Below, piece by piece: positions 14,620 to 30,930 of a stretch of DNA of 32,022 nt. The translations under genes and the position numbers were made by a program. The notes under the pieces were generated by a model that saw only the letters and a program-made list of their open reading frames with translations, had not been told where the DNA came from and did no database searches. The stretch is from the NCBI GenBank assembly GCA_022545545.1, contig JACZQV010000012.1:1-32022 (forward strand). Direction: 5' to 3'. This DNA is from Pseudomonadota bacterium. Its GTDB lineage: Bacteria; Pseudomonadota; Alphaproteobacteria; SMXQ01. Each line of letters opens with the position of its first letter. Within the stretch, counting starts at the first letter, position 1.

Positions 14620-14896
14620 ATTTTACAACCAGTCATCCTTAGATAACGCACCCATCGAATTGATTCCTATCACCCAAGAACCGCTCTCGGTCCGCCAAGA
14701 GATTGCCCAATGGCCCCAAGGGCGGTAATCCTATCAGACTGGATTCCAAACTCGGAGACAAACTCTTGGTGCGCGCCGCTCGCCTGCGTAACGATCACGC
14801 CGTCCCTGTTTCCGGCCCTGTCGCCGGACGCATGTCCCGCGCCGTCACCCGGCCACCCGGGTGGTTGGTTGGCCGGGCGCATGCCCGGCGGGCACC
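14620..14896. other. 277-bp intergenic region between epimerase and MFS genes
   Basis: This divergent gap holds no gene I can support; the short ORFs on both strands (14670-14882 minus, 14703-14900 plus) match nothing I recognise and lack good starts. Near its right end are two GC-rich palindromes: CCACCCGGGTGG (14853-14864), and GCCGGGC/GCCCGGC around GCAT (14872-14889), just before the MFS start. They may form leader hairpins or an operator. Confidence 0.5.
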
Positions 14897-16144
14897 ATGA
14901 AGAAACCCTCGGGCTTCGACGGCATCGTCGAAATCCTCAAAAACCCCAGCTACAGAAACTATACCATCGGCAGCTCGTTCTCGCTGGTCGGCACCTGGGT
15001 CCACCGGGTGGCGGCCGGCTGGCTGACATGGCAACTGACCGAGTCCGGGGCGTGGCTCGGCATCATCGCCTTCGCCGATCTGTTCACCATGGTGCTGCTC
15101 TCGCCCTTCGCCGGGGCCATCGCCGACAGGGTGGACCGGCTGTGGCTTTTCAAGCTGTTCCAGTTGCTGAGCCTGTTCCAGGCGGTGGCGATCGCCATCC
15201 TCGTTTTCACCGGCCTTATCACCATAGAGCTTCTGCTCGGCCTCACCATATATCTCGGCGTCTGTCACGCCTTTCATACCGCCGCCAGGCACGCGCTGGT
15301 GCCGACCCTCGTGCCGCACGAGGGGATCGGCGCGGCGATCGGCCTCAGCTCCTTCATCTTCAATCTCGCGCGCTTCATCGGCCCCGCCGTCGCCGGCATC
15401 ATCATCGTCACCGCCGGCGTCGGCCCGGCCTTCGCTTTCAACGCGCTGAGCTTCACCATCTTCCTCGTCGTGCTGATGCGCGTCGAGGTGGTCCGCCGGG
15501 ACGCCATCGACAAGACGGGCGGCGGCATCTGGAGCAATATCGCCGATGGCTACCGCTATACCGTGGCCCATCCCGCCATCGGTCCCTTGTTGCTGCTGCT
15601 GATCGTGTCGTCGTTCGCGGCGCGCTCCATCGTCGATCTTCTTCCCGGGTTCGCCGAGGACGTGTTCGCCCGCGGCGCCGCCGGCCTTGCGTGGCTGACA
15701 TCGGCGATGGGGCTCGGCGCCACCTTGGCGGGCCTGTGGCTCGCCCGGCGCCAGAGCCTCGTCGGCTTGACCGGGGTGGTGCTGGCCCAAGTGGTGGTGA
15801 TTGCCGCGGCGTTGATCGCCTTCGTCGCCACCGACATCTTCTGGGTCGCCATCCCCGCCCTGATGCTGTCGGGCTTCGCCATGATCATCAACGGGGTGGG
15901 GTCGCAGGTGCTGATCCAATCCACCGTCGCCGGCGCCATGCGCGGGCGGGTGATGTCGCTTTTCACCCTCATCCTGCAGGGCAGCCCGGCGTTCGGCACC
16001 CTCATCATCGGCGTGGTGTCGGAAAGCATCGGCCTGCGCATCCCGGTCGCCGTCGCCGCGGTTCTGTGTCTGGCAGCCTGGTTGTGGATGGTGCCGAGGG
16101 CGGCGGCCGTATCGCGGGCGTTCGAAGGCGAAAGACCGGGATGA
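14897..16144 (+). CDS. MFS exporter (EntS/MFS_3-like), first of tandem pair
   Basis: This 415-aa inner-membrane protein has about 12 hydrophobic helices and belongs to the major facilitator superfamily, nearest to the MFS_3/EntS type that exports siderophores and other small molecules. It opens with IVEILKNPSYRNYTIGSSFS. The loop between helices 2 and 3 reads GAIADRVDR, the usual MFS motif A position. AMRGRVMSLFTLI is conserved near the C-terminal half and is shared word for word in part with the next gene. The start is ATG 14897 (MKKPSGFDG), 12 codons inside the track ORF; the upstream part is GC-rich palindrome sequence. SD is weak. The stop overlaps the next ATG (ATGA). Substrate is unknown. 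Confidence 0.9.
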   Translation: MKKPSGFDGIVEILKNPSYRNYTIGSSFSLVGTWVHRVAAGWLTWQLTESGAWLGIIAFADLFTMVLLSPFAGAIADRVDRLWLFKLFQLLSLFQAVAIAILVFTGLITIELLLGLTIYLGVCHAFHTAARHALVPTLVPHEGIGAAIGLSSFIFNLARFIGPAVAGIIIVTAGVGPAFAFNALSFTIFLVVLMRVEVVRRDAIDKTGGGIWSNIADGYRYTVAHPAIGPLLLLLIVSSFAARSIVDLLPGFAEDVFARGAAGLAWLTSAMGLGATLAGLWLARRQSLVGLTGVVLAQVVVIAAALIAFVATDIFWVAIPALMLSGFAMIINGVGSQVLIQSTVAGAMRGRVMSLFTLILQGSPAFGTLIIGVVSESIGLRIPVAVAAVLCLAAWLWMVPRAAAVSRAFEGERPG

Positions 16145-17409
16145 CCCAGTCACCCCGTGGCGAAGCCCCGGGCTTCGGTCTCGGCGGCGTCAGGCGCGCC
16201 CTTCGCCACCGCAATCACTTCCTGTTCTCGGCCGGCATGGCGCCGTCGCTGATTACCCTATGGATGCAGCGCCTCGCCGTCGGCTGGCTGACATGGGAGC
16301 TCACCCACTCTCCCGCCTGGCTCGGCATCATCGCCTTCGCCGATCTGTTTCCCGCCGTCGTGCTCAGCCCCCTTGCCGGGGCGCTTATCGACCGCGTCGA
16401 CCCGATGCGGCCGATGATCCTGTCCCAGGCCGTCTTCCTGGTTCAGGCGCTTATCCTCGCGGTGCTGAGTTTCGCCGGCCTCCTCACCATCGAAAGCCTG
16501 CTGGCGCTGGCGATCGTGCTCGGGCTCACACATCCCTTCAATACGGCGTCGCGCCATACCATCCTGCCTTCCCTGGTCCCCCGCGAGGACCTCTCGGCGG
16601 CGATCGCCATCAACTCGTCGCTCTACAACGTCGCCCGCTTCATCGGCCCGGCGGCGGCCGGCGCCGTCATCGTCACCGGCGGCGTCACCTGGGCCTTCGC
16701 CTGCAACGTGCTCGGTTATCTGGTGTTCCTCCTCGCTCTCTTTCGTATGGACGTCGCCCCGCCGGAGCGGCGACCGAGGAGCGAGACCACCCTGTTCGGT
16801 GAGGTCGCCGAAGGGTGGCGCTACACCGTCGCCCATCCCGGTATCCGCCCGGTGCTGGTGCTGCTCGTCATCACCGCCGTGGTCTCCCGCCCGGTGGTCG
16901 ATCTCCTGCCCGGATTCGCCGGCGACGTGTTTCACCGGGGCGCCGGGGGCCTCGCCTGGCTTACCGCCGCCATGGGTCTGGGCGCCATGCTGGGCGCCCT
17001 GTGGCTGGCCTTGAGGGGCGTGCTCGCCGGTTTGACCACGATCACGGTCTCGGCGGTCCTGGTTCTCGCCCTCGCCTTGGGGGCGTTCACCGCGATGGAT
17101 CATTTCTTCCTCGCGCTTCCGTTCCTCGCCATCTCCGGCTTCGCCATGGTGGTCAACGGCATCGGCTCCCAGACGCTCATTCAGTCGTCGGTGGCGCCCG
17201 CCATGCGCGGCCGGGTGATGTCGCTCTACACCCTGATCTACCGGGGCATGCCGGCGCTGGGCGCCGTCGTCATGGGGTGGCTGGCGGAAGGGTTGGGGTT
17301 GCCCGCGACGCTTGGCGGCGGCGCCGTGCTGTGCCTCATCGCCTGGGGCTGGGCCGCCCGGCGCCGGCGGGGAATGGCCGTGGCGCTGGAGGAAAAAGGC
17401 GCCGACTGA
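16141..17409 (+). CDS. MFS exporter (EntS/MFS_3-like), second of tandem pair
   Basis: The second MFS protein (422 aa) is clearly paralogous to the first. Both contain WLGIIAFADLF, a DRVD motif-A loop, NxARFIGPA-xAG, a YTVAHP segment, DLLPGFA-DVF-RGA-GLAWLT, NG-GSQ-LIQS and MRGRVMSL-TLI in the same order. It starts with ATG at 16141, sharing ATGA with the end of the first gene, so it is translationally coupled. The 2700-base track ORF beginning at 14710 is an artefact: its first half is a shadow of gene one, and the real protein starts at MTQSPRGEAPGFG. About 12 membrane helices are visible. The pair could act as a heterodimer or handle two related substrates; neither is shown. Confidence 0.9.
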   Translation: MTQSPRGEAPGFGLGGVRRALRHRNHFLFSAGMAPSLITLWMQRLAVGWLTWELTHSPAWLGIIAFADLFPAVVLSPLAGALIDRVDPMRPMILSQAVFLVQALILAVLSFAGLLTIESLLALAIVLGLTHPFNTASRHTILPSLVPREDLSAAIAINSSLYNVARFIGPAAAGAVIVTGGVTWAFACNVLGYLVFLLALFRMDVAPPERRPRSETTLFGEVAEGWRYTVAHPGIRPVLVLLVITAVVSRPVVDLLPGFAGDVFHRGAGGLAWLTAAMGLGAMLGALWLALRGVLAGLTTITVSAVLVLALALGAFTAMDHFFLALPFLAISGFAMVVNGIGSQTLIQSSVAPAMRGRVMSLYTLIYRGMPALGAVVMGWLAEGLGLPATLGGGAVLCLIAWGWAARRRRGMAVALEEKGAD

Positions 17410-20979: not shown

Positions 20980-22281
20980 CTAGCCCCCGGCGGCGTCGAT
21001 GAGGGCCTCGGGCTTGGGCCCGCCGGTCGCCCAGTCGAGGAGCTCCACCGTGTGCACCACCGGGATGGCGGTGCCGCCGCCGATCTGGATCTGGCAGCCG
21101 ACGTTGCCGGTGGCGATGACCTCGGGCGACACCGATTCGATGTTCTGCACCTTGCGCGCCAGGAGCTGTCTGGCGATGTCGGGCTGCAGCAAATTGTAGG
21201 TGCCCGCCGAGCCGCAACACAGATGCCCCTCGGGCACCGTGCCGACCTCGAAGCCGGCCGCTTCGAGCAGCGCGATGGGCGCCTTCTCCACGCCTTGGCC
21301 GTGGCGGAGCGAACAGGCGGACTGGTAGGCCACCTTGAGGCCCGGCAGGTGCATCGGCGGGGCGAGACCGATTTCGGCGACGAACTCGCCGATGTCCCTG
21401 GCCAGCGCCGACACCGCCTCGGCCCTGGCGGCCCAGCTTGGGTCCTCGCGCAGGATGAAGCCGTAATCCTTGACCATGGTGCCGCAGCCCGACGCGTTGA
21501 TGATGATGGCGTCGAGGCCTTCACCCTCCGCCTCCGCCGTCCACGCCCCGATGTTGGCCTTGATCGCGCCAAGCGCGTCCTTCTCCCGGCCGAGGTGATG
21601 GCCGATGGCGCCGCAACACCCGGCCCCCTTGACGATCAGCACCTCGCATCCGTGGCGCCGCAAGAGCCGGATGGTGGCTTCGTTGATCGCCGGCGCCAGG
21701 GTGCGTTGGACGCAGCCCGCCAGCAGGGCGACGCGCTTCTTCCGCTCGCCCTCGGCGGGGTAGGACCCGGGCCCGCCCGGCCCGGACGGTTTCGGGATCT
21801 TCGCCGGGACCAGTTCGAGAACGCCGCCGAGCGGTCCCGACACCAGCCCTGCCAGCGGACGGAAGAGGCGCGCGAGATGAAGGAGGGGGCGGAACAGCCA
21901 GGGCGTCGGCAGCACCAGGGCAAGGGCCAGGCGCAACGCCCGGTCGGGCCACGGCCGGCGGTAGGTCTCTTCGATATAGCGGCGCCCGTGATCGACCAGA
22001 TGCTGGTAATGGACCGCCGACGGGCAGGTCGTCATGCAGGCGAGGCAGGACAGGCATCTGTCGATGTGCTTCACGACCTCGGCGGTGGCTGGCTTCTCCT
22101 TCTCCAGCATCTCCTTGATCAAATAGATACGCCCGCGCGGGCTGTCGAGCTCATCGCCGAGCAGCACGTAGGTCGGGCAGGTGGCGGTGCAAAAGCCGCA
22201 ATGGACGCAGGCCCGCAGGATCTTCTCCGACTCCCTGACGTCGGCATCGGCAAGCTGGGCGAGGGTGAAGTTGGTCTGCAT
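20980..22281 (-). CDS. glcF: glycolate oxidase iron-sulfur subunit
   Basis: GlcF is the electron-transfer subunit of glycolate dehydrogenase, passing electrons from the flavin of GlcD toward the quinone pool. The 433-aa protein has two [4Fe-4S] clusters: CVHCGFCTATCP (Cys25, 28, 31 and 35) and CLSCLACMTTCP at about residue 74. Two CCG-type domains follow, with GCCGAIGHHLGREKDAL, then CSLRHGQG and LCCGSAGTYNLLQP. GGGAGGG lies five bases before the ATG at 22281. It is the last gene of glcD-glcE-glcF, with 12 bases between glcE and glcF. It converges on the EamA gene over 30 bases. Confidence 0.96.
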   Translation of the reverse strand: MQTNFTLAQLADADVRESEKILRACVHCGFCTATCPTYVLLGDELDSPRGRIYLIKEMLEKEKPATAEVVKHIDRCLSCLACMTTCPSAVHYQHLVDHGRRYIEETYRRPWPDRALRLALALVLPTPWLFRPLLHLARLFRPLAGLVSGPLGGVLELVPAKIPKPSGPGGPGSYPAEGERKKRVALLAGCVQRTLAPAINEATIRLLRRHGCEVLIVKGAGCCGAIGHHLGREKDALGAIKANIGAWTAEAEGEGLDAIIINASGCGTMVKDYGFILREDPSWAARAEAVSALARDIGEFVAEIGLAPPMHLPGLKVAYQSACSLRHGQGVEKAPIALLEAAGFEVGTVPEGHLCCGSAGTYNLLQPDIARQLLARKVQNIESVSPEVIATGNVGCQIQIGGGTAIPVVHTVELLDWATGGPKPEALIDAAGG

Positions 22282-22293
22282 GCGCGCCCTCCC

Positions 22294-23553
22294 TCAGACG
22301 CCCGCGTACATGCGCCCGGCATTGAGGATGCCCTTGGGATCGAAGTTCTCCTTCACCCGCCGGGTCAGGCCGGCGAGGGCGTCCGGCTGGGGCTGGAACA
22401 CCGGAACGGTCCGGCGCGTCTCGGCGTCGGCCTTAATGAGCGTGCCGTGGCCGCCGGCATCCCCGATGGCGGCGCGCACGATGGCGGCGCGCGCGCTGGC
22501 CGCCATGTCTTCTAGCGCCCCAATCGCCAGCCAGATCAAGCCGCCGCCCCAATCATAGAAGGCCAGCGTCCGGAGGTTCTTGGAGATCCGCTCGGTGATG
22601 GCGGCGGCCTCGGACGGCGGCGCGGAGATCCGCCACACCTCGGCCGCCGGGCCCAGGTGTGGCGGGGAAACCAGCGGATGCACGTCGCGAATTTCCCGCC
22701 ACAGGGCGCGCGTATCGGCGTGCGCCAACTCGCCTGCCGTGCCGAGACCGGCGAGGCCCTTACCAAGGCCCTCGGCGCGGGCGGCGACCGAGGGCGCCGG
22801 CCCCTCGAGCCTCATGACGGTGGCGGCATTGGCGCCGGCGATCCGCGCCACCCAGGATCGCTGGGCGAGGGGCTTTGGCAGATGGGCCGCGGCGGTGACC
22901 TCCCAGGGCCCGGTAAGCGCCGTGGTCATGGCGGCGAGCGCCGCCCGATCGTCGAGGCCCGGGATCACGACGGTGCGGCTGTCCTCGGGCGCCGGCAGGA
23001 CCTTGAAGGTCACCTCGGTCAGCACCGCAAGGGTCCCGAAAGAGCCCGTCAGCAGCTTGGACATGTCGTAGCCGGTGACGTTCTTCACCACCCGGCCGCC
23101 GGACTTGAAGGCTTCGCCCCGTCCGCTGACGGCCTTGACGCCGAGGATATGATCGCGCGCGGCGCCGGCGGCGATCCGCCTCGGCCCTGAAAGGTTGCAG
23201 GCGAAGATGCCGCCGATGGTGGCCCCGCCGGCCTCCTCTCCACCTTCCGCGCCCTCCAGCAGGGGGCCGTAATCGGCGGGCTCGAACGCCAACTGCTGGC
23301 CGTTCTTATCGAGGCTCGCCTCGATTTCGGCAAGCGGCGTGCCGGGCCTGGCGGTCATCACCAGCTCGTTGGGCTCGTACATGGTGATGCCGGCGAGGCG
23401 CGAGAGGCTGAGGGTCCGCTCGGCCTCGGCGGGCCGGCCATAGGTCCTCTTGGTGCCGGCGCCGAGGACCTCGAGCGGCGTCTCCTCGGCGAGCGCCTCG
23501 GCCACCGCGTCGAGGACCTCTTCCGGGGTGCCGGGCGTTATCTCGTTTTCCAT
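22294..23553 (-). CDS. glcE: glycolate oxidase FAD-binding subunit
   Basis: GlcE is the second FAD-binding subunit of glycolate dehydrogenase. The protein is 419 aa and shows the FAD_binding_4 core: GAGTKRTYGRPAEAERTL, PNELVMTARPGTPLAEIEA, GQQLAFEPADYGPLL, GGATIGGIFACNLSGPRR and the VKAVSGRGEAFKSGGRVVKN block with NVTGYDMSKLLTGSFGTLAV. It ends FDPKGILNAGRMY, the usual C-terminal signature of this flavoprotein family. It lies 18 bases after glcD and 12 before glcF, in the standard operon order. SD is weak, so translation may depend on coupling with glcD. Confidence 0.96.
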   Translation of the reverse strand: MENEITPGTPEEVLDAVAEALAEETPLEVLGAGTKRTYGRPAEAERTLSLSRLAGITMYEPNELVMTARPGTPLAEIEASLDKNGQQLAFEPADYGPLLEGAEGGEEAGGATIGGIFACNLSGPRRIAAGAARDHILGVKAVSGRGEAFKSGGRVVKNVTGYDMSKLLTGSFGTLAVLTEVTFKVLPAPEDSRTVVIPGLDDRAALAAMTTALTGPWEVTAAAHLPKPLAQRSWVARIAGANAATVMRLEGPAPSVAARAEGLGKGLAGLGTAGELAHADTRALWREIRDVHPLVSPPHLGPAAEVWRISAPPSEAAAITERISKNLRTLAFYDWGGGLIWLAIGALEDMAASARAAIVRAAIGDAGGHGTLIKADAETRRTVPVFQPQPDALAGLTRRVKENFDPKGILNAGRMYAGV

Positions 23554-23571
23554 CGGGCCGAACCCTGCCGG

Positions 23572-25059
23572 TCAGAACCGGGGCAGGTCGGGGTGGCGCA
23601 TCCGCCCGCGATGGATGTGCACGCGGCCGAGTTCGGCGCAACGATGCAGCGTCGGAAACACCTTGCCGGGATTGAGCAGTGATTTTGGATCGAAGGCGCA
23701 TTTCAGGCGCTGCTGGTGCTTGAGGTCGTCCTCGTTGAACATCTCGCCCATGAGGTCCCGCTTCTCGACCCCGACACCGTGCTCGCCGGTCAGCACGCCG
23801 CCGACCTTGACGCACAGCCTGAGGATCTCGGCGCCGAACTCCTCCGCCTTCTCGAGCTCGCCGGGTACGTTGGCGTCGTAGAGGATGAGGGGGTGGAGAT
23901 TGCCGTCGCCGGCGTGGAACACGTTGGCGACGCGAAGGCCGAAGCGCTTCGACAGCTCGGTGACGCCGGTCAGGACCTCGGGCAGCCGGCCCCGGGGTAT
24001 GGTGCCGTCCATGCAGTAGTAGTCGGGGGAGATCCGCCCGATCGCCGGGAACGCGGCCTTGCGCCCGGCCCAAAACGATAGCCGCTCGTCCTCATTGGCG
24101 CTGACCCGCACCGAGTCGGCGCCGTTGTCCTCGGCGATCCGCTGCACCCGCCCGATCAGGTGATCGACCTCGGCCTCGACGCCGTCGAGTTCGACGATCA
24201 GCAGCGCCTCGGCGTCGCGCGGATAGCCGGCATGGACGAAGTCCTCGGCGGCGTGGATCGCCGGTCTGTCCATCATCTCCATGCCGCCCGGGATGATGCC
24301 GGCGGCGATGATGTCGGCGACGCATTTGGCCGCCGCTTCGATGGTCGCGAAGCCGAGGAGAAAGGCGCGCGCGGTCTCGGGCTTCCTGAGGATTCTGACG
24401 GTCACCTCGGTGATGACGCCGAGCAGCCCCTCCGAGCCGGTGAGCACGCCCATGAGGTCATAGCCGTCGGCGCCGACATGCTTGCCGCCGAGCCGGATCA
24501 CCTGGCCGTCGATCAGCACGACTTGAAGCCCCAGCACGTTGTTGGCGGTCAGCCCGTATTTCAGGCAGTGCACGCCGCCAGAGTTCTCGGCCACGTTGCC
24601 GCCGATGGTGCAGGCGATCTGGCTCGAGGGGTCCGGCGCATAGTAGAATCCCTTGTCCTCGACCGCTTCGGTGATGGCGAGGTTGGTCACCCCCGTCTGG
24701 GCGACGACGCAGCGGTTGTCATAGTCGATATCGAGGATGCGGTTGAACTTGCCGAGACCGAGCGTCACCGCGTCGGCGAGCGGCAAGGCCCCGCCCGAGA
24801 GCGAGGTGCCGGCGCCGCGGGGCACCACCTTGATACCGTTGGCGAGGCAATAGGCGAGCACCTTCGAGACCTGCTCGACGGTGGCCGGCAGGACGACGAT
24901 CAGGGGCAGTTCGCGATAAGCGGTGAGCCCGTCGCATTCATAGGCCCTGAGCTCGTCCGCTTCGTCGATCACGCCTTCGCCCGGCACGATATCGCGCAAC
25001 GCTCCGACGATCTGCTTTCGCCGGGCGATGACCTCGGCGTCGGGCTTGGGCATCTTCAT
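23572..25059 (-). CDS. glcD: glycolate oxidase catalytic FAD subunit
   Basis: GlcD oxidises glycolate (and often D-lactate) to glyoxylate using FAD. The 495-aa length is normal. FAD-binding blocks are VVPRGAGTSLSGGALPL (from residue 78), APDPSSQIACTIGGNVAENS and LKYGLTANNVLGLQVVLIDG. The C-terminal FAD-oxidase domain has VANVFHAGDGNLHPLILYD and GGVLTGEHGVGVEKRDLM, and CAFDPKSLLNPGKVFPT near the end. AAGGGAG stands nine bases before the ATG at 25059. It heads glcDEF and is divergent from pyruvate kinase. The leader carries two 33-bp tandem repeats and a candidate promoter. No glcC regulator is in the window. Confidence 0.97.
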   Translation of the reverse strand: MKMPKPDAEVIARRKQIVGALRDIVPGEGVIDEADELRAYECDGLTAYRELPLIVVLPATVEQVSKVLAYCLANGIKVVPRGAGTSLSGGALPLADAVTLGLGKFNRILDIDYDNRCVVAQTGVTNLAITEAVEDKGFYYAPDPSSQIACTIGGNVAENSGGVHCLKYGLTANNVLGLQVVLIDGQVIRLGGKHVGADGYDLMGVLTGSEGLLGVITEVTVRILRKPETARAFLLGFATIEAAAKCVADIIAAGIIPGGMEMMDRPAIHAAEDFVHAGYPRDAEALLIVELDGVEAEVDHLIGRVQRIAEDNGADSVRVSANEDERLSFWAGRKAAFPAIGRISPDYYCMDGTIPRGRLPEVLTGVTELSKRFGLRVANVFHAGDGNLHPLILYDANVPGELEKAEEFGAEILRLCVKVGGVLTGEHGVGVEKRDLMGEMFNEDDLKHQQRLKCAFDPKSLLNPGKVFPTLHRCAELGRVHIHRGRMRHPDLPRF

Positions 25060-25099
25060 CGCGTAACTCTCCCTTCGGCGCCAAAACGCCCTTGACTCA

Positions 25100-25164
25100 A
25101 TTTAGGCGTTTTTCGCCGCCCTCACTATAGCGATTTAGGCGTCTTTCGCCGCCCTCACTATAGC
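25100..25164. repeat. two 33-bp tandem repeats in the glcD leader
   Basis: Bases 25100-25131 and 25133-25164 are the same 32-base sequence apart from one T/C difference, spaced at a 33-base period. Each starts ATTTAGGCGT and ends CTCACTATAGC. Each holds a small hairpin, GGCG/CGCC around a T-rich loop, and on minus a TATAGT that looks like a -10 box. They stand between the candidate glcD promoter and its start codon. Confidence 0.9.
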
Positions 25165-25186
25165 CGGCCTCGCCGGTCGGTTTCAA
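25157..25186 (-). promoter_or_regulatory. candidate glcDEF promoter
   Basis: On minus, TTGAAA (25186-25181) and TATAGT (25162-25157) are 18 bases apart. The -10 is the start of the upstream 33-bp repeat copy, and the second copy would offer another TATAGT 33 bases downstream without a comparable -35. Transcription would start near 25150. Confidence 0.45.
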
Positions 25187-25195
25187 ATGTCCGCG

Positions 25196-25232
25196 CTTGT
25201 CAAAGCAACTATTGGCACCCGTCATTGACAAG
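25196..25232. promoter_or_regulatory. 8-bp inverted repeat upstream of pyk
   Basis: CTTGTCAA (25196-25203) and TTGACAAG (25225-25232) are perfect reverse complements, 21 bases apart, in the glcD-pyk divergent region. The right arm overlaps the AAGGAG ribosome site of pyk (25230-25235). The centre-to-centre distance is 29 bases, close to three helical turns. It may be an operator or an mRNA hairpin that affects pyk translation. Confidence 0.4.
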
Positions 25233-25247
25233 GAGTAGTGTCCGCCT

Positions 25248-26666
25248 ATGCGCCGCCACAGAAACGCCAAGATCGTCGTCACCTTGGGACCGGCGACCTC
25301 GAGCCCGCAAACCATCGAGGAGCTGTTTCAAAACGGCGCCGATGTCTTTCGCCTCAACTTCAGCCACGGCGACCACGAGACCCACGCCAAGGCCATCGAG
25401 GCCATCCGGGCGCTGGAAAAGAAATGCGACCGTCCGATCGGCCTGTTGATGGACCTTCAGGGGCCGAAATTGCGCCTCGGCGAGATCAGGAACGGCACGG
25501 TCCGCCTCGAGAAGGGGGCAAGGTACCGCCTCGATCTGTCGCCCGAGCCCGGCGACGCGCGCCGCGCGCCGTTGCCCCATCCGGAAGTGTTCGCCGCGAT
25601 CAAGCCGAAACAGGAGCTGCTGATCGATGACGGCAAGGTGCGGCTCGAGGTCGAGGAGTGCGGCGAGGATTTCGCCGACACCAAGGTCATAACCGGCGGT
25701 GAGATCTCGGACCACAAGGGGGTGAACGTTCCGGACGTCGTGTTGGCGGTCGCGGCGCTGACGGAAAAGGACCGCGGGGACCTCGAATTCGCCCTCGACA
25801 ACGGGGCGGACTGGGTGGGGTTGTCCTTCATCCAGCAGCCGGACGACGTCGCCGCCGTCCGCGACCTTGTCGACGGCAGAATTGCTATCTTGGCCAAGCT
25901 GGAGAAACCGATGGCGATGGCCCGTCTCGACGACATCATCGAGCTGTCGGATGCCGTCATGGTGGCGCGCGGCGATCTCGGCGTCGAGATGGCGCCCGAG
26001 GAGGTGCCGAGCCTGCAGAAGCGAATCATCCGGGCCTGCCGCCTGGCCGGCAAGCCGGTGATCGTGGCGACCCAGATGCTCGATTCCATGGTCCATGCGC
26101 CCAGGCCGACCCGGGCCGAAGCATCGGATGTCGCCACCGCCGTTTATGACGGGGCGGACGCGGTGATGCTGTCGGAGGAAACCGCGACAGGGGACTATCC
26201 CGTCGAATCGGTGGCGATGATGGAGCGGATCATCAAACGGGTGGAAGCCGACCCCCTTTACCGCACGATCATGGACGCCGACCACCCCGGGCCCCAAGCC
26301 ACCACGTCGGACGCCATTACCGCCGCCGCGCGTCAGGCGGCCGAGACGGTCTCGGCGGTGGCCATCGTGACCTTCACCACTTCAGGCTCGACCACGCTCC
26401 GCGCTTCGCGGGAACGCCCCGGAGTGCCGATCCTGGGCCTGACCGGCAACATAGCGACGGCCAGGCGTCTGGTGCTGGGCTGGGGGGTCCATTCGGTCCA
26501 CACCGCCGACGTCGAGAGTTTCTCCGATATGGTGGAAAAGGGCGTCCACATCGCGTTTCGCGAGGAATTCGCCGAGACCGGAGGCCGTCTGGTGATCACC
26601 GCCGGTGTACCCTTCGGTATTTCGGGAACGACCAATATCCTCCGGATCGCCGAAGTCAAGGCGTGA
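25248..26666 (+). CDS. pyk: pyruvate kinase
   Basis: Pyruvate kinase makes pyruvate and ATP from phosphoenolpyruvate and ADP in the last step of glycolysis. The 472-aa protein starts NAKIVVTLGPATSSPQTIEE and continues VFRLNFSHGDHETHAK and LMDLQGPKLRLG, the substrate and K+ site. The catalytic Lys signature is AILAKLEKPMAM, followed by VMVARGDLGVEM and VIVATQMLDSM. The C-terminal domain is complete, ending NILRIAEVKA. ATG 25248 gives the usual N-terminus, with AAGGAG 12 bases upstream. It is divergent from glcDEF and convergent with rpmJ; a pyk-rpmJ neighbourhood is common in alphaproteobacteria. Confidence 0.97.
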   Translation: MRRHRNAKIVVTLGPATSSPQTIEELFQNGADVFRLNFSHGDHETHAKAIEAIRALEKKCDRPIGLLMDLQGPKLRLGEIRNGTVRLEKGARYRLDLSPEPGDARRAPLPHPEVFAAIKPKQELLIDDGKVRLEVEECGEDFADTKVITGGEISDHKGVNVPDVVLAVAALTEKDRGDLEFALDNGADWVGLSFIQQPDDVAAVRDLVDGRIAILAKLEKPMAMARLDDIIELSDAVMVARGDLGVEMAPEEVPSLQKRIIRACRLAGKPVIVATQMLDSMVHAPRPTRAEASDVATAVYDGADAVMLSEETATGDYPVESVAMMERIIKRVEADPLYRTIMDADHPGPQATTSDAITAAARQAAETVSAVAIVTFTTSGSTTLRASRERPGVPILGLTGNIATARRLVLGWGVHSVHTADVESFSDMVEKGVHIAFREEFAETGGRLVITAGVPFGISGTTNILRIAEVKA

Positions 26667-26800
26667 GGCGGGCTCCTCGACGCGCATCCCCGGGACGGGC
26701 GCCCGCGGGCGGTTCACCGAGGTCCTTTGATGGGCCAGGCCCACATGCATGGCGCCGGCTCCTATAGGACCAGTCGACGAATCGGATCGCTGAACGGAAG

Positions 26801-26822
26801 CGGCCCCGGGAAGCCGGGGCCG
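26801..26822 (-). terminator. GC-rich hairpin after rpmJ
   Basis: CGGCCCCGG and CCGGGGCCG form a perfect 9-bp stem with a 4-base loop just after the rpmJ stop. On the minus strand the following bases are CTTCCGTTC, only partly T-rich, so it is a weak-tailed terminator. It may also end pyk transcripts coming from the other side. Confidence 0.65.
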
Positions 26823-26824
26823 GA

Positions 26825-26950
26825 TCAACCTTGGCGCGCCTTGAGGCGGGGATTGCGCTTGTTGATGACGTAAATGCGGCCGCGCCGGCGCACGATCCGG
26901 CACGACTTGTCCCGGCGTTTGGCTGATTTCAGGGAATGCAAAACTTTCAT
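26825..26950 (-). CDS. rpmJ: 50S ribosomal protein bL36, zinc-free type
   Basis: This 41-aa gene is too short for the ORF track. It reads [20 protein letters not shown], then [21 protein letters not shown], which is bL36 of the large ribosomal subunit. Only one Cys is present, so it is the 'C-minus' form (like E. coli YkgO) that does not bind zinc; many alphaproteobacteria have only this form. The C-terminal [12 protein letters not shown] is diagnostic. The SD is poor (a run of G before GTGAC). It is followed by a GC hairpin and is convergent with pyk. Confidence 0.95.
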
Positions 26951-27082: not shown

Positions 27083-28342
27083 TTACTTCTTGGGTTTGAG
27101 GGCATAGATCCGGTACATGCGGATATTGCCACTGTCGAGCGCGGCGACACGGCGGGCCCAATGCTCGGCCTCGTCGACCAGGCTCGGTACCAGTTCATCG
27201 GGGATGCTGCCGGGTTCGTGGGTGTCGATGAACTTCTGCCAACCTTCGAAAATTCTCCGCCGCGCGGCCTTTGTGATGTCCTCGACGACGCGGATATCGA
27301 AGGTGAGGCGTTTGAGATAGGCTTCTGTCCGATCCGGGGACCAGAGGTGGGGCTGAACCGGTTCGTGTTCTATCCAATCCTTGACCGCTTGGGACTCGGC
27401 GCCGCGCTCGCGCACCATGTAGTCGGTGAAGACGAACTGACCTTCGTTCTTCAGCGCCGTGAAGACCATCTTGAACAGGTGCTCCTTGTCGGCGACGGTG
27501 AAGAGAGCCTCCTTGGAGAAGACCCGGTCGAAGAAATTGGGCCGTAGTTCGATGGTCTCGAAGTCGGTGTGATTGACCGGCGCTTTCTTTGACATGCCGG
27601 CATTGACGGAACGCTCCATGCCGGCGGCGGCGAGGGCATCGGAGCCCTCCATGCCCGTCAGCCAGGCCTTGGAGTCCTCCGCGATGGCGCGGGCAGGCCC
27701 GCCGAGTCCGGCGCCGAGATCGAGCACGTTCATCGACGAGTTCATACCGAACGGCCGGACCAACTTGAGGACCTGCTCGCTACCGCCAGGGCCGATGAAG
27801 CCGGGGCCCCAAATGGTTTCCACGATCTTGATGCGCTCCGCCGGCCAGTTCTTGTCGGTTATTTCGGGGGCGGCTTCTTCCGCCTTGAACTCGAGGCTCG
27901 CGACCCCCGGGAGGGTTTTCTTCGCCAGGGTTTCCTTGAGGCTTTCGTCGTCGGAGCCGGGTTCAGCCGCTACGTCCTCGGAGTTTTTCCCTTGCCACCA
28001 CGCCAGGAAGCGGACGCGGAAGGAGAAATTGGTTTCACCGGACTCGTCAGATTCGTCGGCTTCTTCGGCCTCCCGGATCGTTTGCGCCAGTTCCTCGGCG
28101 TCATACCCATCCCACCAGGCCTTGAGGCGGATGGAGTAGGGGAGCTTTCCCTCCTCTTCCCCCTCGGACTCGTCCCCCTCGGCGTCCTCCCGGTCGGGGT
28201 CATCGCCCTCGCCGTCTTCGTCTCCCTCAGGAGTCTCGATCAGCGTTCGAGGGTCTTCCCCCGCCCACCAGGCCTTGAAGCGGACGCCAAAAGGAATCTC
28301 GGGGCCATCCTCTTCGGAGGAGGAGGGCCCAAAGGGAATCAT
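27083..28342 (-). CDS. SAM-dependent methyltransferase with three N-terminal 'AWW' repeats
   Basis: The C-terminal half is a class I methyltransferase: motif I VLDLGAGLGGPARAIAE at about residue 203, then FDRVFSKEALFTVADKEHLF and GQFVFTDYMVRE. WPAERIKIVETIWGPGFIGP, just before it, is like the lead-in of UbiE/PMT-type enzymes. The N-terminal third is unusual: three copies of a [IL]-P-x-x-[IV]-R-x-K-A-W-W-x-G-like motif at residues 16-34, 67-85 and 106-124, joined by acidic linkers (Asp/Glu/Gly-rich). The track starts at a TTG (28432), but that lies inside the CtrA-type site and has no SD, so I prefer ATG 28342 (419 aa, MIPFGPSSSEEDG). SD there is also weak. It is probably cytoplasmic; the methyl acceptor is unknown. 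Confidence 0.85.
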   Translation of the reverse strand: MIPFGPSSSEEDGPEIPFGVRFKAWWAGEDPRTLIETPEGDEDGEGDDPDREDAEGDESEGEEEGKLPYSIRLKAWWDGYDAEELAQTIREAEEADESDESGETNFSFRVRFLAWWQGKNSEDVAAEPGSDDESLKETLAKKTLPGVASLEFKAEEAAPEITDKNWPAERIKIVETIWGPGFIGPGGSEQVLKLVRPFGMNSSMNVLDLGAGLGGPARAIAEDSKAWLTGMEGSDALAAAGMERSVNAGMSKKAPVNHTDFETIELRPNFFDRVFSKEALFTVADKEHLFKMVFTALKNEGQFVFTDYMVRERGAESQAVKDWIEHEPVQPHLWSPDRTEAYLKRLTFDIRVVEDITKAARRRIFEGWQKFIDTHEPGSIPDELVPSLVDEAEHWARRVAALDSGNIRMYRIYALKPKK

Positions 28343-28424
28343 GCGCCGAAATGTGGCCGCGATTTGCAATAGCCTGGCGTCGATCGTTTCAGAATCACTT
28401 AAGTTAAACTTTACGCTGCAATGC

Positions 28425-28450
28425 TTAATCAACGCTTAATCAACGCTTAA
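28425..28450 (-). promoter_or_regulatory. tandem CtrA-type binding site (TTAA-N7-TTAA-N7-TTAA)
   Basis: TTAA occurs at 28425, 28436 and 28447, each pair exactly 7 bases apart, and the spacers are identical (TCAACGC). TTAA-N7-TTAA is the established binding pattern of CtrA, the cell-cycle response regulator of alphaproteobacteria, and TTAACC at the right end fits the extended form. It lies about 85 bases upstream of the methyltransferase ATG. More TTAA words stand at 28399 and 28404, and a TTAACC at 28490. The rest of the 344-base gap back to 28686 holds no gene I can support. Confidence 0.6.
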
Positions 28451-28686
28451 CCAATTGGCCTTGGTAATCAACATTCGACAAACAATAAATTAACCTTCCA
28501 ATACTTGCAGCGCTATTTCCCGCATATGAATCGTGGGGTGGACCGGTAAGTTCACCGTCGGTTCGGCGTCCGACCGTAGTCGTCTCCGAATGACCCGATC
28601 GCTTTCACGGCCGGCCAAGGCGCGCCGGCGCGGAATCGCCAGCGGCGGCGGCCAAGCGGTCCGTCTCCCGAGAACCAAGCCGGTTC

Positions 28687-30930
28687 CTATTCGATGACGT
28701 AGATCGGGCTCGACCAGACCTGGTGCCCGTCCTCCTGGGTCAGGCAGACATAAAGGGCGTCATCGGCGCCGGATTTGAGCGCGATCCGGCGTTCCACATC
28801 GAGCCTCATGGCCCCGTTATCGTCGGGCAGGCGAAAGACGCGGACCCGGCGGCCGATGCCGCCGGCCTCGAATTTGCTGTCCTCGAGGCCGATGTCGGAG
28901 ATCTCCAGTTGGCATTGGACCAGGGCCGTCTCTATGCTGAGCGAACCGGCGTCTCGGTCGGCGAGCCACAGATCGAAGCCGACGAAACCGCCGGTCGTCA
29001 GCGCCTTCCAGGAGAGCGTCGTGTCGTCCGGTTGATCCACCGTCTTCTCGAGATTGTAGAAGTTGATCGGCTGGAGCCGCTCGATACGGTTGCCACTGAG
29101 TTTGGCGCCGCCGTCCCAGATGGTCTGGCGTCCGCGGCCCCGGTATTCGGAGCCCTCGAAGATCACCCGGATGCGATTGCCGAGATCGGCCTCCCCGTAA
29201 GGGCGCACGGTTTCCAGGGTCTCGACGCCGTTGCGGATCTCCATGCGCTCTATCGGCGCCGATGTCACCGCCTCGACGGCGAACGTGACCTCGCCATCGG
29301 CGCATCTGACGATGTCGCCCATCATCGCTGCGGACACCTTTCGGCTTCCGCCGGCGCCGAGCGCGGGGTCCTCATCGAACCGCTCGGCGCCATCATCGAA
29401 GCGGGCGCGGACATCCAGGATCATGCGGCATCCCGTCGTCGCGTAATGGTGGCGTTTGCGCAACGACTCGATGAGCCCCTCGCGGCTCAACTCCCTCGCC
29501 AGCATGCAGGTCAGGCCGCCATAGGCGCCGAACAGGGTGGCGCCGGGGTAACTCGCGCCGGGGCGTCCCTTGTGGCCGTCGCTGTTGGCGACGATGCCGA
29601 CGCGATAGCCCTGCTCGAAGGCGTCATGGACGATCCATTCGAAGGTGCCCCAGGCCGAATGGACCTCGACCGCGCGCTCGAGGCGGACATCATGGGCCAT
29701 GACAATATCGGCGTAGCGCCCGCCGACATGGGCGAAGACGACGCAGTCCTCATTGGCGAGGGATTCGAACAGCTCCCTCGCCGAATTGGCGTCGGTCCCG
29801 ATGTCGGAAAGATCGTCGACGAGGGCGTGGGAGGAGCGGCGGATTTGCCGTCCCTCTTCCATGAACAAGACGTTGCGGTCGCCGCCGAGCCCGGTGTTGC
29901 CCGACCATTCGTAGCCGGGAAAGACGACGAACCGGCCGTCCTCGTTGAACTCTTCGCTGAGCTCGTTGAGGTGGTTCCAGAAGCCGGTGGTGATCTGGAA
30001 ATCGTTGCCCTGGTGACAGCAGGCGTCGAGGTACGCCCTGTCGCGGGCGAAGGCGAAGTAATCGCGCGCCGAGTTGGTGCCGATGGTCTCCTCCGACTGG
30101 CCGTGCAGATCGCCCCAGAAGGGGAGGAGCCGGGGCTGGGCTTCGATGCGCAAGGGATTGGACCGGCAGAGCAGCTTGCCGTCCGCATCGACCATCTCGA
30201 CGCGCACGTCCCCGGGTGTGGAGGCACCGAGACCTTCGATGGTGCGGGAGAATTCGCCGGGGCTGAAGGTGACGCTTTCGGGCAGGCCGGTGAGGGGCCC
30301 ATCGGCCCGGAGCCTGAACGTGCCCTCGCACCTGTCGCTCGGATTGCCCCACTTGTCCTCGCCCTTGAGCCTGAGTTCGAAGGGCTCGCCGGCCGGCTTG
30401 AGCGTCGGCAGCACCGCCTTCCAGACGGCGGGCGGTCCCGGCACGATGGCGATCACCGGTGATCCCGGCAACTCGACGTAATTGTAGGTGGCGATGGCGT
30501 CGACCAGCACCCGGAACTCGAAGGTGTCCTCGCAGAAGGTCTGCAGGCGGATGCCGGGCGATCCCCGGCGCATGTCGCCGTAGCGGACGACGATCCTGTC
30601 TCCCTCCCGGAGGAACCCTTGTACCACCTTGATATACAGGGTCTTATCCCACGGGCGGATGTTGTGCTTGATGTCGTAGCGGACGTCGAGCACGGCCTGG
30701 TTCGAGGCCTCGACGGTGACGTAGTTGGGCGCCTCGGGGTCGTCGAACTGGGTCCTGCCCATGTCGCTGGCGAAGCGATGGACGATCTTGATGCTGCCGG
30801 TGTCATCGATGCCGAAAAGCCCGGCCGTGTAGGTGAGGGTGAAGGAGGCGAAGGATCCGGCCTCGAAGGCGCCTTGCGGCTCGATGACGGCGGTCCCCAT
30901 CTGTTCCGGAAGGTAGGTCGAATGCGGCAT
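28687..30930 (-). CDS. DUF3604 domain protein (PHP-like)
   Basis: This 747-aa protein matches DUF3604 (PF12228), whose members have a polymerase/histidinol-phosphatase-like metal site and unknown substrates. The motif LPFWGDLHGQSEETIGTNSA, in the middle of the protein, supplies the HxxS-like metal residues, and FVVFPGYEWSGNTGLGGDRN and GIVANSDGHKGRPGASYPG are further conserved blocks (the latter with DxH). The N-terminal third is beta-rich with no signal peptide, so it is probably cytoplasmic. AGGAAC precedes the ATG at 30930. It lies 96 bases after the SDR gene on the same strand and may be co-transcribed. A hydrolytic role on an organic substrate is inferred only. Confidence 0.85.
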   Translation of the reverse strand: MPHSTYLPEQMGTAVIEPQGAFEAGSFASFTLTYTAGLFGIDDTGSIKIVHRFASDMGRTQFDDPEAPNYVTVEASNQAVLDVRYDIKHNIRPWDKTLYIKVVQGFLREGDRIVVRYGDMRRGSPGIRLQTFCEDTFEFRVLVDAIATYNYVELPGSPVIAIVPGPPAVWKAVLPTLKPAGEPFELRLKGEDKWGNPSDRCEGTFRLRADGPLTGLPESVTFSPGEFSRTIEGLGASTPGDVRVEMVDADGKLLCRSNPLRIEAQPRLLPFWGDLHGQSEETIGTNSARDYFAFARDRAYLDACCHQGNDFQITTGFWNHLNELSEEFNEDGRFVVFPGYEWSGNTGLGGDRNVLFMEEGRQIRRSSHALVDDLSDIGTDANSARELFESLANEDCVVFAHVGGRYADIVMAHDVRLERAVEVHSAWGTFEWIVHDAFEQGYRVGIVANSDGHKGRPGASYPGATLFGAYGGLTCMLARELSREGLIESLRKRHHYATTGCRMILDVRARFDDGAERFDEDPALGAGGSRKVSAAMMGDIVRCADGEVTFAVEAVTSAPIERMEIRNGVETLETVRPYGEADLGNRIRVIFEGSEYRGRGRQTIWDGGAKLSGNRIERLQPINFYNLEKTVDQPDDTTLSWKALTTGGFVGFDLWLADRDAGSLSIETALVQCQLEISDIGLEDSKFEAGGIGRRVRVFRLPDDNGAMRLDVERRIALKSGADDALYVCLTQEDGHQVWSSPIYVIE

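Follow-up and report, generated by a model that had tools for sequence, protein, structure and literature searches.

A tryptophan-pair peptide found three times before a methyltransferase core belongs to an apparently undescribed enzyme family of Alphaproteobacteria

Why should a methyltransferase carry three copies of a short tryptophan-pair motif at its N-terminus? The question is raised by a gene in the window, the whole 32,022-nucleotide stretch of the alphaproteobacterial contig JACZQV010000012.1 (assembly GCA_022545545.1) that was analyzed. The preliminary description read the protein as three AWW repeats on acidic linkers in front of an ordinary SAM methyltransferase, and proposed that the repeats tether the enzyme. 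The repeats are real and tethering is a plausible role for them, but that reading missed two things: a single copy of the motif is the hallmark of a larger protein family, and the core is of the phosphoethanolamine-methyltransferase type.

The open reading frame lies on the minus strand at 27083–28342 and encodes 419 amino acids counted from the ATG at 28342. The real start is probably a TTG at 28369, nine codons upstream of this ATG, because relatives from the same taxonomic family have an ATG at the equivalent place; the gene would then span 27083–28369, stop included. The ATG-started N-termini of three such relatives are MNVASALMKVLPF, MDISASLKRIFP and MSLTTALKKFLPI, and their counterpart in the window is (M)QIAATFRRMIPF. 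The stretch added by the TTG start (28331–28369, minus strand) is short and amphipathic, probably forms a short helix, and recurs among single-copy members of this taxonomic family. The congener retains it as well, with synonymous changes only, in the last 16 codons. The three motif copies follow, all on the minus strand: PFGVRFKAWWAGED at residues 17–30 (28253–28294), PYSIRLKAWWDGYD at residues 68–81 (28100–28141) and SFRVRFLAWWQGKN, the copy closest to the core, at residues 107–120 (27983–28024). They are spaced 51 and 39 residues apart, and the linkers between them are indeed rich in Asp and Glu, which make up 51% of the linker between copies 1 and 2 (28142–28252) and 45% over most of the length of the linker between copies 2 and 3 (28025–28099). 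The methyltransferase core occupies residues 165–419 (27086–27850).

The statement that no named domain matches the repeats is borne out by Pfam and NCBIfam. Searched up to an E-value of 1, the window protein matches these collections only in the core, and nothing is found across residues 1 to approximately 165–180; a known repeat domain is thereby ruled out for the AWW units. Homologues that were not found through the motif give the consensus P-[LFW]-[RK]-x-[RK]-[LFV]-x-A-W-W-[ED]-G-x-[DE]. In the 79 WW-bearing members of this kind, R or K occupies position −4 in 75, A position −1 in 64 and G position +3 in 74. The tryptophan pair is present in the N-terminal stretch of 101 of 118 locus entries, a few of which are duplicated, and some of the 17 entries without it still have one W in comparable surroundings. 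The only invariant columns in an alignment of 53 rows are W115, W116, G214, D307 and W395; this alignment was partly selected through the motif, which inflates the motif conservation, and the figures for the 79 members are free of that bias. A motif that is unconserved and merely drifts along with the acidic linkers, an outcome that the preliminary description named as refuting its reading, is not what the homologues display: the motif is strongly conserved in them.

The motif is also exclusive. The strict pattern AWW[DE]GY[DE], searched at the DNA level in 385 genomes of the class, has 22 matches, while the reversed control has none, and all 22 matches are N-termini of the AWW methyltransferase family. 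The genome of the window contains 24 DNA sites that could code for AWWxG, and beyond the three copies no translation of these sites continues into the remainder of the motif. A general docking motif used by many proteins is ruled out by these two results. A literature search did not find the string AWWEGY. The analysis confirms that the motif exceeds chance and is a real element rather than acidic drift. It is the usual single N-terminal element of the family, multiplied in the window protein and not defined by its repetition.

One copy is the norm, and most family members have no more. Three copies are seen only in the window species and the one congener sampled, which is 85% identical, and two copies are found in the groups f60 (L164), f88 (L165 and L173) and f126 (L186 and L202). 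On a quick tree of the cores, the sister group of the three-copy pair consists of single-copy members from its own taxonomic family, with support of 92 for their joint fork and 99 for each set; the two-copy members fall in other clades. Two copies arose separately in about three other lineages. The two copies in L164 are nearly identical, which marks this duplication as recent. The triplication predates the split between the window species and its congener, because the copies resemble their counterparts in the congener more than they resemble each other. Across the six copies of the two species R, A, W, W and G never vary, though flanking residues have changed. The full 12-residue units, however, are 81% identical between the two species and the linkers 78%, a slight difference that restricts how far selection on every copy can be claimed.

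The core belongs to the class I SAM methyltransferases (Pfam Methyltransf_11, E = 4.8e-10) and its SAM site is intact: G214 of the glycine-rich loop is kept in 94 of 96 members, and E or D at position 232, the acidic ribose ligand, in 95 of 96. The best match of the family core, by both profile and fold, is to the phosphoethanolamine N-methyltransferases (PMTs) of Plasmodium, plants and nematodes. The family profile matches AtPMT2 at E = 6e-43, a Foldseek search matches PfPMT at E = 8e-20, and the best 20 Foldseek matches of the single-copy homologue L095 are all PMTs, with a target TM-score of up to 0.82. PMTs and the family share the [WF]G-x-x-[FY]-x-[SP]-x-GG entry, the SAM glycine loop and the TDY strand; the AWW tail is an addition of the family. 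The two differ in the active site. The catalytic dyad of PvPMT is Y16/H129 (PMC4357015), equivalent to Y19/H132 in PfPMT. The tyrosine position of the dyad corresponds to W166, a tryptophan in 78 of 96 family members, and the histidine position to T282, which is unconserved (T in 29, A in 13, R in 11 and L in 9 of 96). The phosphate-binding set of PvPMT (Y24, Y157, Y178 and R176) is mostly absent: only the position of the TDY tyrosine is largely retained (Y in 56 and F in 34 of 96), and the family residues aligned with the Arg/Tyr phosphate loop are unlike those of PMTs. Since neither the dyad nor most of the phosphate ligands are kept, the family is of the PMT structural type but would act on a substrate other than that of PMTs. 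Membership in the phosphoethanolamine methyltransferases is ruled out by the active-site residues, despite the fold. The best NCBIfam match is to the DVU_1556 family methyltransferase (NF045667; residues 184–361, E = 2e-14), whose cut-off of 155 bits excludes the window protein at 53.5 bits.

A profile search of the 385 genomes of the class finds matches at E < 1e-20 in 152 of them. The family is present in approximately 114 (about 30%) at E < 1e-45, and matches weaker than this may be other methyltransferases. All six matches below 1e-40 in 299 genomes from across the phylum fall in the same class, Alphaproteobacteria. The AWW proteins are apparently an undescribed alphaproteobacterial methyltransferase family. 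If this is right, a widespread enzyme of the class has been hidden under the label "methyltransferase domain protein", with a private invariant peptide tag and a conserved tie to CtrA, which regulates cell cycle and motility in this class. A further sequence feature is seen at the opposite end of some members: twelve proteins from several families (L002, L003, L086, L087, L098, L108, L147, L149, L154, L155, L172 and L182) end in S-[DN]-W, mostly as L-[LM]-S-[DN]-W, directly before the stop codon, and the window protein lacks this ending.

The CtrA-type site reported upstream of the gene is found to be a pair. Two overlapping TTAA-N7-TTAA sites lie within 28425–28452, at 28425–28439 and at 28436–28450, the latter followed by CC; they stand at least 56 bases before the TTG start, and the congener retains one. 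The association extends through the family, well beyond the genus. We scanned the 400 bases preceding the first WW and found the exact TTAA-N7-TTAA in 22 of 112 family genes, distributed over 13 GTDB-type families, where approximately one gene is expected from the density of sites in the loci; the counts are sequence matches and ignore kinship. Exact TTAA pairs with spacers of 2–6 and 8–15 occur in 0–2 genes, compared with 22 at spacer 7, and when one mismatch is allowed, spacer 7 yields 59 members and the other spacers 6–24. Alphaproteobacterial genes controlled by CtrA have TTAA-N7-TTAA(C) upstream, and the family is like them in having such a site, conserved in relatives. The presence of the site upstream of many members makes the enzyme a probable part of the CtrA programme, which covers motility, surface and cell cycle, and we infer that CtrA controls it in cells. 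The genome of the window encodes a CtrA homologue (C164:19422–20096), 59% identical to Caulobacter CtrA. A TTAA-N7-TTAAC site (C164:20171–20186) lies approximately 75 bases before this ctrA homologue, as autoregulation would predict. In the literature searched, no methyltransferase of the AWW family beside glcDEF is named as a CtrA target, and CtrA, glycolate oxidase and methyltransferase were not found joined. Few CtrA targets are known to be common to many families. If true, the presence of the family enzyme among shared targets would be a lead to the role of CtrA outside model species.

The AlphaFold model of the window protein has the repeats as short helices between disordered acidic linkers: the AWW helices span residues 18–27, 69–77 and 108–116 with pLDDT of approximately 65–85, and the linkers are largely below 50. 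A short helix at the motif is also predicted in a single-copy homologue (pLDDT of approximately 70–75), and the predicted cores exceed 95. The reading that we tentatively favor, without holding it firmly, is that AWW is a linear docking peptide for a conserved partner, with additional copies adding avidity and the enzyme acting in the CtrA programme. A class I SAM methyltransferase core, a disordered linker and a 14-residue helical peptide would be combined in one protein; the conserved partner would recognize the peptide and so recruit the enzyme to the place where it acts, and avidity would strengthen the binding where acidic spacers separate two or three copies. We infer docking and avidity because the peptide is strict, sits on a flexible linker, is confined to one family and has been multiplied in several lineages. 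Doubtful, in our estimate, is the more far-reaching version: AWW would be a new docking motif used throughout the class and recognized by a receptor of its own, the enzyme of the CtrA programme would methylate a new substrate at one particular place in the cell, and copy number would tune the tethering. The 14-residue tag could serve as bait for a receptor, and the natural one-, two- and three-copy variants allow tests of avidity.

The main rival to docking, which we regard as rather unlikely, is a membrane-interface helix that would place its Leu/Phe/Trp face in the bilayer surface and its Arg/Lys residues on lipid head groups, bind more tightly with extra copies, and hold the methyltransferase beside a lipid or a membrane-bound substrate. 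Membrane-targeting amphipathic helices on linkers are familiar from proteins of the FtsA and MinD type, and the AWW element resembles them in being a short helix that bears cationic and bulky hydrophobic residues and sits on a disordered linker. The ten-residue helix has a mean net charge of +1.3, and its hydrophobic moment averages 0.60 over the family with a median shuffle rank of 0.13; in addition, same-family members have the further short amphipathic stretch at the N-terminus, and the closest solved relatives of the core produce phospholipid head groups. The window copies, however, are weakly amphipathic, with shuffle ranks of 0.19–0.39, the linkers are strongly acidic, and both tryptophans and the glycine are kept far more strictly than interface helices usually require. 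The restriction to a single family likewise sets AWW apart from helices of the FtsA and MinD type.

We rank below this an action in cis, improbable in our assessment, whereby the motif folds onto its own methyltransferase as a lid or a dimer-swap element, which would make any extra copies redundant. A motif as strongly conserved as the catalytic residues and exclusive to one family would be expected of such an element, and most single-copy members have a linker short enough for it. Linker length is nevertheless highly variable, up to approximately 140 residues in L107, and the models suggest no firm docking of the AWW helix onto the core, given the moderate confidence of the motif helix and the low confidence of the linker next to a core above 95. 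The multiplication of copies in several lineages suits multivalent binding better than the lid of a single active site. The extra copies might instead have accumulated neutrally, by tandem expansion of the disordered acidic tail, with only one copy that matters. The similar divergence of units and linkers between the congeners, and the recent duplication in L164, are consistent with such an expansion; the five residues left intact in all six copies amid flanking changes argue against it, and we consider it improbable too.

Against the docking reading, no co-conserved neighbor beyond rpmJ and glcDEF points to a partner. Downstream of the methyltransferase, on the same minus strand, the window has rpmJ (ribosomal protein L36, 41 aa; 26825–26950), glcD (23572–25059), glcE (22294–23553) and glcF (20980–22281). 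Among 114 loci, glcD lies within the stretch read in 50, always downstream and on the same strand, and is mostly followed by glcE and glcF. The gap between the methyltransferase and glcD in these relatives measures approximately 250–700 bases, and rpmJ is inside nearly all of the 34 gaps examined; a small partner gene in this gap is ruled out, the conserved small reading frame being rpmJ. A functional tie to glycolate oxidation is possible, but a shared old gene order explains the neighborhood equally well, and the tie is weakened by the intervention of rpmJ between the methyltransferase and glcD. The order methyltransferase–rpmJ–glcD–glcE–glcF (20980–26950 in the window) is itself conserved across many families. 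In the window pyk is located between the methyltransferase and the glc genes on the opposite strand, and it is nearby on the other strand in approximately 20 of the 114 loci. Two more genes of the window may be mentioned. An 899-aa reading frame at 14710–17409 has an MFS transporter as its C-terminal half, and its first 500 residues are without a Pfam match. Upstream of the methyltransferase, on the same strand, 28687–30930 encodes a 747-aa protein with similarity to DUF3604 and the CehA/McbA metallohydrolases, and the congener has it in this position too.
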